Shown piece by piece: positions 1,920-3,440 of a stretch of DNA of 35,196 bases (position 1 is the stretch's first letter; the number at the start of each line of letters is the position of its first letter). A program made the translations under genes and the position numbers. Source of the stretch: a virus. The stretch covers positions 1 through 35,196 of the IMG/VR virus record IMGVR_UViG_3300032820_000046. One strand, written 5' to 3'. The notes beneath the pieces were generated by a model. The model saw only the letters and a program-made list of their open reading frames with translations. It had not been told where the DNA came from and ran no database searches.

Positions 1920-1956
1920 TTGTTTATCTATTAAGTTATTAATTTATTTTAGTGTC

Positions 1957-1978
1957 AACGCACCATACAAGGAGCGTT
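1957..1978 (-). repeat. Hairpin repeat, copy 1 of 3
   Basis: AACGC-A-CC-ATACAA-GG-A-GCGTT on the plus strand: five plus two base pairs around one A/A mismatch, with loop ATACAA. Related elements with the same loop and core occur at 3155-3177 and 3419-3440. This copy stands about 37 bp upstream of the 1704-1919 gene; I could not find a convincing long-range partner arm for it. Confidence 0.65.
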
Positions 1979-1997
1979 ATACAAGCTGTAATAAGTA

Positions 1998-2081
1998 ATA
2001 GAGGGTAGGACTCGAACCTACGCTATGACCAACCTATGTTTCAAGGATTCGATACCAACTTCTCATTACAGCAACCTCTAC
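1998..2081 (-). tRNA. tRNA-like element, probably degenerate
   Basis: Read on the minus strand, 84 nt: a 7-bp acceptor-like stem (2075-2081 with 1998-2004, one G-U) and a perfect T-arm with a 5-bp GTAGG/CCTAC stem and loop TTCGAGT. A D-loop-like AGTTGGTA is also present. The anticodon arm does not fold canonically: the best stem around CCTTGAAACATAGG leaves an oversized loop, with GAA at the expected place. There is no encoded CCA. A decayed class II-size tRNA, a tRNA mimic, or a captured attachment-site fragment are the alternatives. Confidence 0.35.
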
Positions 2082-2123
2082 TACTATTACAATATCATTA
2101 AAAAGCCCGTTCTAAAAGTAGCC

Positions 2124-2184
2124 ACGTAGGAAAGGCTTTCTAATATACTAAGGCTTTAAATAAATTTTTTGTGATTTCCTACGT
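2124..2184. repeat. 10-bp inverted repeat in the non-coding region
   Basis: ACGTAGGAAA at 2124-2133 and its exact complement TTTCCTACGT at 2175-2184, separated by 41 bases. The right arm also sits inside GTGA...TCAC (2171-2187). It lies just downstream of the promoter at 2197-2227, so it may fold at the 5' end of the transcript or serve as an operator. Confidence 0.6.
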
Positions 2185-2196
2185 CACTTAAGACTT

Positions 2197-2227
2197 CAAA
2201 TATAGTTATTTATTTATAACCTACAAA
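2197..2227 (-). promoter_or_regulatory. Bacteroidota-type promoter
   Basis: On the minus strand TTTG (2224-2227), 19 bases, then TATATTTG (2197-2204). This matches the Bacteroidota sigma factor consensus TTTG-N19-TAnnTTTG with ideal spacing. Expected start of transcription is near 2190, so it drives the non-coding region and perhaps the genes at 1919 and below. Confidence 0.7.
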
Positions 2228-3127: not shown

Positions 3128-3177
3128 TTGTATAGTGCATAGTTCGTTCCTCACAACGACACCATACAAGGGGCGTT
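3128..3177 (-). repeat. attC-like hairpin with hairpin repeat copy 2
   Basis: Plus-strand arms TTGTATAGTG (3128-3137) and CACCATACAA (3160-3169) pair over 10 bases with one G-T. Inside them TCGTT (3144-3148) pairs with AACGA (3155-3159) around a six-base loop, leaving six bases unpaired on one side. The ends are AAC (3122-3124) and GTT (3175-3177). It follows the stop codon of the gene at 3176-3376 directly, even sharing the TAA. The right arm contains repeat copy 2 (AACGACACCATACAAGGGGCGTT). Confidence 0.55.
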
Positions 3178-3376: not shown

Positions 3377-3440
3377 AATATGATAATCAAGTTGTTTTGT
3401 TGTTAATCCGTGATAGGCAACGCGCCATACAAGGGGCGTT
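3332..3440 (-). repeat. Long-range attC-like hairpin with repeat copy 3
   Basis: TTGTATAGCACATTG (3332-3346) pairs with CAACGCGCCATACAA (3418-3432) along all 15 positions, three of them G-T. The outer ends are AAC (3326-3328) with spacer ATT, and spacer GGGGC with GTT (3438-3440). The same end and spacer pattern is seen at 3128-3177. The 71-base loop holds the ATG at 3374-3376. In RNA the stem would enclose the start codon; in DNA it resembles a long attC with a large terminal loop. Confidence 0.55.

Follow-up and report, generated by a model that had tools for sequence, protein, structure and literature searches.

The window, i.e. the whole stretch of DNA analysed here (35,196 bases), is the virus record IMGVR_UViG_3300032820_000046 of IMG/VR, and the hosts of this virus are Bacteroidota-type bacteria. 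All its main genes are carried by the minus strand: a terminase related to those of Bacteroides and Flavobacterium phages is followed by structural genes, and then by a replication module coding for Rad52-type annealase, DnaA-C-like, DUF3127, DUF6291, DnaB-like helicase, RusA and HNH proteins. The interval studied lies behind the helicase; its neighbours are a gene of 79 aa (2221-2460) and a gene of 71 aa (1704-1919), the latter lipoprotein-like. As the original prediction had stated, it is free of ORFs (none of at least 50 aa between 1919 and 2221) and is served by a promoter of the Bacteroidota type (2197..2227, minus strand), with a -33 TTTG at 2224-2227, a spacer N19 and a -7 TATATTTG at 2197-2204; the RNA is expected to start near 2190.

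That prediction had assigned the promoter to a single tRNA-like RNA. Comparison with other phages indicates that two elements had thereby been fused: the interval appears to hold two separate minus-strand non-coding RNAs, element A (2193-2097) and element B (2081-1997), and the product nearest the promoter would be A, not B. The ~95 nt behind the promoter form a separate conserved RNA, and the promoter does not belong simply to the tRNA-like RNA, since a terminator-like element intervenes.

Relatives of the window were collected via the helicase. The 79-aa gene gave no confirmed match when used as a probe and was later found by blastn against the relatives: the matches in L004 and L014 span it, continue to position 2100 and end there. 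Over element A and its promoter, their identity to the window is 98.5% and 91%, respectively. Element B is missing from the records of all 12 relatives. Directly behind B lies an inverted-repeat element, CAACGCACCATACAAGGAGCGTT (1956..1981, no strand assigned), which belongs to neither A nor B. As AACGNNCCATACAAGGNGCGTT, it is present in three window copies located between small genes (1957-1978, 3156-3177 and 3419-3440), none being expected by chance, and has near matches in L019 and L038; it is possibly a cassette boundary or a mobile element, the small genes of this region being variable.

Structure and distribution of element A

Element A (2097..2193, minus strand, ~95 nt) has the features of a kissing-hairpin leader RNA and is kept in L004, L014, L005, L021, L023, L037 and many further phages. 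Behind the promoter TATATTTG come hairpin H1 (GUGA[CGUAGGAAA]UCAC, 2171..2187), a linker and hairpin H2 (AGCC[UUUCCUACGU]GGCU, 2120..2137), with an outer stem, S3, drawn around H2 and leading into a U-run, all on the minus strand. The 5' strand of S3 is AAAGCCU (2151..2157); its 3' strand, GGGCUUU, makes with the U-run a terminator-like end (2100..2108), read from the sequence and arranged alike in the homologues. In the window the H1 and H2 loops are perfectly complementary over 9-10 bp, and a kiss of 7-11 nt is perfect in 25 of 25. The original prediction had missed the loop-loop pairing; its suggestion of a pseudoknotted regulatory RNA fits element A (2193-2097), which is not the part that had been meant.

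Compensatory changes across the relatives are found in H1, H2 and S3, all 4 pairs of H1 (16 sequences) and all 5 pairs of H2 being changed on both sides. The 16-sequence alignment contains 37 double-change cells versus 10.9 ± 2.7 after shuffling (0 of 500 shuffles were as high), and moving the partner by one column makes pairing fall from 90% to less than 46%. For S3, the mean duplex energy is -14.5 kcal/mol with the phage's own tail versus -9.7 with tails swapped between phages; the own tail of the window ranks only 6th among the tails. A plain MFE fold of the window element gives one long S2 helix, no better than shuffles (z -0.7); for P12002L and L006, a computation that leaves out the kiss yields precisely H1 and S3[H2]. 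At element A, no Rfam family was matched at the gathering score, be it in the window, the relatives or the other carriers. What the computation shows for element A is its structure, conservation, promoter and position.

Beyond L004 and L014, more distant copies are those of L005, L021, L023 and L037, and many others came from scanning viral contigs with a pattern. The pattern enforced the loop core GTAGRAA/TTYCTAC, and not the stems, so that loop-core conservation among its hits is biased; loop variants obtained without the pattern (L005, L023, the second L129 copy and P12002L) also self-match. Overall, the architecture recurs with unrelated, self-matching loops in ~20 distinct sequences, two cultured phages included. 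A descriptor of the architecture (H1, a kiss of at least 7, H2, S3 and a T-rich end, with TAnnTTTG as sole sequence motif) gave 11 hits on relatives fetched by protein, some of them redundant and two families probably due to chance, versus none on the reversed sequence and a total of 12 over 10 Markov replicates. On a larger set of 1.16 Mb, partly gathered by the loop-sequence pattern, 26 families were found versus 1, and on 620 kb of cultured phages there were three promoter-bearing hits for 0.6 expected. L006/L007 brought a new loop, AACGA[AUUGCAG]UCGUU, with a 14-bp S3. Two copies are present in each of L093, L112 and L129; their loops differ, and every copy matches itself. Members recognized by architecture only, with new loops and outside the covariance models, were seen at L006 4025-4140, L018 3931, L022 3697, L112 9167 and L093 1106.

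A few candidates were set aside. The Phocaeicola BM127P1 architecture hit is unconvincing (chance expectation in that set, ~0.6), and the scan hits in L013, L068/L071, L095, L119 and L140 are inside genes and look like chance. The human-gut record MT835858 (L138) has one half-similar stretch, in which no kissing partner was recognized by eye. The exact pattern, a search confined to its own loop sequence, had no match in bacterial genomes, and a scan with the helicase alignment brought no relative. When element A members were compared by blastn with collections of phages and plasmids, the matches stayed at chance level.

The two cultured phages are convincing as genuine carriers by position. 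In Polaribacter phage P12002L, matched by model R1 (E 0.001), element A fills the gap before an annotated replication protein, replication initiation O-like according to PHROGs, and only 5 nt separate the end of the U-run from the ATG. In Flavobacterium phage 11b it occupies the gap before PHG11b_62/63, PHG11b_63 being a DUF6291 protein. TATATTTG (or TAnnTTTG) precedes nearly every homologue, those of P12002L and 11b likewise. Outside the window, element A lies between genes, on their coding strand, and the next gene usually starts at most 45 nt behind; what commonly follows is a gene for a 66-76 aa protein, then one for a replication initiator or a DUF6291 protein, and then one for a DnaB-like or primase-helicase protein. 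In the window itself, it lies behind the helicase gene and ahead of B and the small lipoprotein-like gene.

Possible functions of element A

The most likely function of element A is that of a cis-acting leader or attenuator. Transcription would begin a few nucleotides upstream of it, and H1 would be the first to fold; the linker and the 5' strand of S3 would emerge next, then H2 would fold and its loop would kiss the H1 loop, and S3 would close around H2 ahead of the U-run. The kiss would decide whether S3 forms, and element A would act on the downstream genes, for the most part operons of replication initiators and helicases, as a transcription attenuator or as a leader that controls translation. 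That it regulates, upon which signal and in which direction, and whether the kiss and S3 cooperate or oppose each other, is inference.

The position of a leader, with a promoter before and a start codon close behind, is found in most homologues, and S3 with its U-run supplies the terminator stem and U-run of an attenuator. A terminator with a long linker and with H2 inside is unusual and counts against an attenuator. Where the gap to the next gene is 5-45 nt, it lacks room for another Bacteroidota promoter, so that downstream expression must cross element A, as expected of a leader. This argument is weaker in the window, L004 and L005, where 117-178 nt separate element A from the next gene (178 nt in the window).

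The same spacing bears on another reading, rather unlikely in our view, in which element A is a free-standing small RNA acting in trans and the neighbourhood of replication genes is merely convenient. It does have its own promoter and a terminator-like end, and there is space for a second promoter behind it in the window, L004, L005 and L093; however, most phages have their next ATG 5-45 nt behind the U-run, which leaves no space for a promoter. The loops, moreover, differ between the copies of one phage while each copy matches itself, which favours pairing in cis over action in trans and also disfavours a single protein-binding motif. It is quite improbable that element A is instead part of the phage replication origin, as an initiator RNA or a DNA-level inverted repeat, and no regulator. 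It does adjoin O-like/DnaD-like initiator and DnaB genes, but L093, L112 and L129 have two copies with different loops, one of which stands before a homing-endonuclease-like gene, and three covarying stems with a U-run suit an RNA better than a protein site.

The tRNA-like element B

Element B (1997..2081, minus strand, 85 nt) contains the parts on which the original prediction was built. The 7-bp acceptor-like stem is present, with GUAGAGG (2075..2081) as 5' strand pairing with CCUCUAU (2004-1998) and one G.U pair, and so is the perfect T-arm, GUAGG[UUCGAGU]CCUAC (2005..2021), which gives B a 7-bp acceptor and a 5-bp T-arm with a UUCRANY loop. Between them, the core TAATGAGAAGTTGGTATCGAATCCTT (2043..2068) includes a D-loop-like AGUUGGUA. 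The acceptor can be extended to ~16 bp with one bulge, and no CCA is encoded. The RF00005 model scores 23.1 bits, below its cut-off of 29, with E = 3.4e-4 for this genome (lax threshold), a value that places the kinship with tRNA above chance; its alignment skips the anticodon arm, leaving 31 nt unaligned, and an anticodon stem-loop with a 7-nt loop is not found.

The 11-bp helix that had been put forward as competing with this fold (2072-2062 with 1995-1985) does exist, with one G.U pair. As a key feature it is rejected, since a helix of at least 11 bp is found in 76 of 1000 Markov/dinucleotide shuffles of the 101-nt stretch (7.6%) and it is not kept, by eye, in the homologue L146.

Scanning for the core of B brought up L146, L147, L148 and L150, four contigs that represent a single phage type, a T4-like phage with a gp32-type single-strand DNA-binding protein, a tail tube, a baseplate hub and a DNA end protector. 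The 26 nt of the core are identical in L146, where the acceptor is AACACUG/CAGUGUU, fully paired and likewise continuing beyond 7 bp, and the T-arm is GUUGG[UUCGAGU]CCAAC: both stems are compensated. L146 does not retain the helix in the middle of B. For an 18-mer the chance expectation in such a collection is ~1, and L149 looks like that one; the 26-nt block with the arms in place is no chance match. The exact T-arm/acceptor motif had no match in viral contigs, and support for B comes from one independent homologue, no further occurrences having been found. B would be a tRNA-like RNA that lacks a regular anticodon arm, and it recurs in an unrelated phage.

The likeliest reading, proposed from sequence, is that B is a phage tRNA mimic, in which acceptor, D-loop-like core, T-arm and acceptor follow in canonical order and the anticodon arm has been replaced. 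The original prediction had named mimicry among its options, and the compensatory changes in the T4-like phage strengthen it. The RNA would be made by readthrough from the promoter of A, or from a separate unseen promoter; a role as anti-nuclease decoy is speculation. That B was once a tRNA gene and is now decaying, or that it goes back to a tRNA fragment acquired by recombination, we consider unlikely. Its tRNA score is sub-threshold and phages often carry degenerate tRNA-like genes, but the T4-like phage keeps the 26-nt core, and its acceptor and T stems differ from those of B yet stay paired, which argues that B is no chance fold and probably no decayed tRNA. It is far less probable still that B is a bacterial Y RNA of the YrlA class, binding Ro60: tRNA mimicry with a replaced anticodon arm is what characterizes YrlA too, but RF02553 matches only the T-arm of B (model 31-47; 9.5 bits versus a cut-off of 69), and neither the window nor the L146 records have a TROVE protein (PF05731) to serve as partner. 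An ordinary tRNA, which had not been expected, is rejected (no ARAGORN call, nothing at the Rfam gathering score and no high-scoring ordinary tRNA model), as are a tmRNA (none called by ARAGORN) and an attP site originating in the 3' end of a tRNA (B has the two strands of the acceptor, and they pair); among the window proteins that were scanned, no integrase was recognized.

Side observations concern other RNAs. In L146, the T4-like phage, two more apparently structured non-coding stretches lie at 180-480, immediately ahead of its tRNA-like RNA; one is closed by TTTACTGGGT/ACCCAGTAAA, and neither has a match in Rfam. The 'tRNA-OTHER' of Polaribacter phage Danklef_1 (L151 169-226; MT732458.1 43546-43603) is tRNA-like and 58 nt long; it has an acceptor, a D-arm and a T-arm, and the anticodon arm is wholly missing. 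Enterococcus phages VRE9_1 and EF1 (L155 and L158, ~150-227) carry a tRNA-like element, annotated pseudo or unannotated, with weak matches to model R2 (25.9 and 23.8 bits). One of the carriers of element A has, in addition, an ordinary tRNA-Thr(TGT) of 53.6 bits (L130 1983-2053, minus strand).

Significance and comparison with known RNAs

Element A appears to be a previously uncatalogued leader RNA, found elsewhere directly before phage replication genes; nothing relevant on such an RNA in these phages was found in the part of the literature covered. For the interval as a whole, we lean slightly towards A as a leader or attenuator (or a translation-controlling leader) together with B as a phage tRNA mimic. 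We are more hesitant about the joint proposal of two new classes: in A, a regulatory RNA of phages, a kiss within one molecule between freely variable, self-matching loops, every copy in a genome with a pair of its own, would gate termination before replication operons, and B would be a tRNA mimic common to unrelated phages. If true, Bacteroidota phages would control replication genes with a compact RNA device whose specificity resides in interchangeable loop pairs; the device would be tractable in the cultured phages P12002L and 11b, and early-gene regulation in a very common, poorly studied phage group would become directly testable. B would add a conserved non-YrlA case to the tRNA-like RNAs of phages, with decoy, RNA-enzyme handle and anti-defence as candidate roles.

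B shares with tRNA (RF00005) an acceptor stem, a T-arm and a D-loop-like AGUUGGUA, and differs from it by lacking the anticodon arm, by the 53 nt that separate its acceptor from its T-stem and by a score below cut-off. Like YrlA (RF02553), it is a small RNA with a tRNA-like domain; unlike it, it keeps the canonical arm order, the match being through the T-arm only.

For element A, three systems come to mind. The put RNA of HK022, a two-hairpin RNA with which an early transcript begins, suppresses termination without loop-loop pairing. A resembles it as a promoter-proximal two-hairpin phage RNA, but put is an anti-termination element with no kiss, whereas A kisses and ends in a terminator-like stem. 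The purine riboswitch has two hairpins joined by loop-loop pairing, and a switching stem precedes its terminator, which is also the layout of A; however, its P1 encloses both hairpins while S3 encloses H2 only, and A has a kiss of 7-11 bp, variable in sequence, and no conserved ligand pocket that we could see. The pT181 attenuator belongs to a plasmid and controls a replication initiator gene. Attenuators of this type are 5' leaders with a terminator under the control of a kissing hairpin, in trans (PMC4878617). Leader hairpins, loop-loop kissing, an intrinsic terminator (terminator-like in A) and a replication initiator gene are common to both; the kiss of pT181 is with an antisense RNA in trans, whereas A has both loops in one RNA. 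For A neither an antisense promoter has been demonstrated nor an anti-terminator identified, and its regulatory role is putative. By analogy, the pT181 attenuator would nonetheless be the nearest known logic to that of element A.
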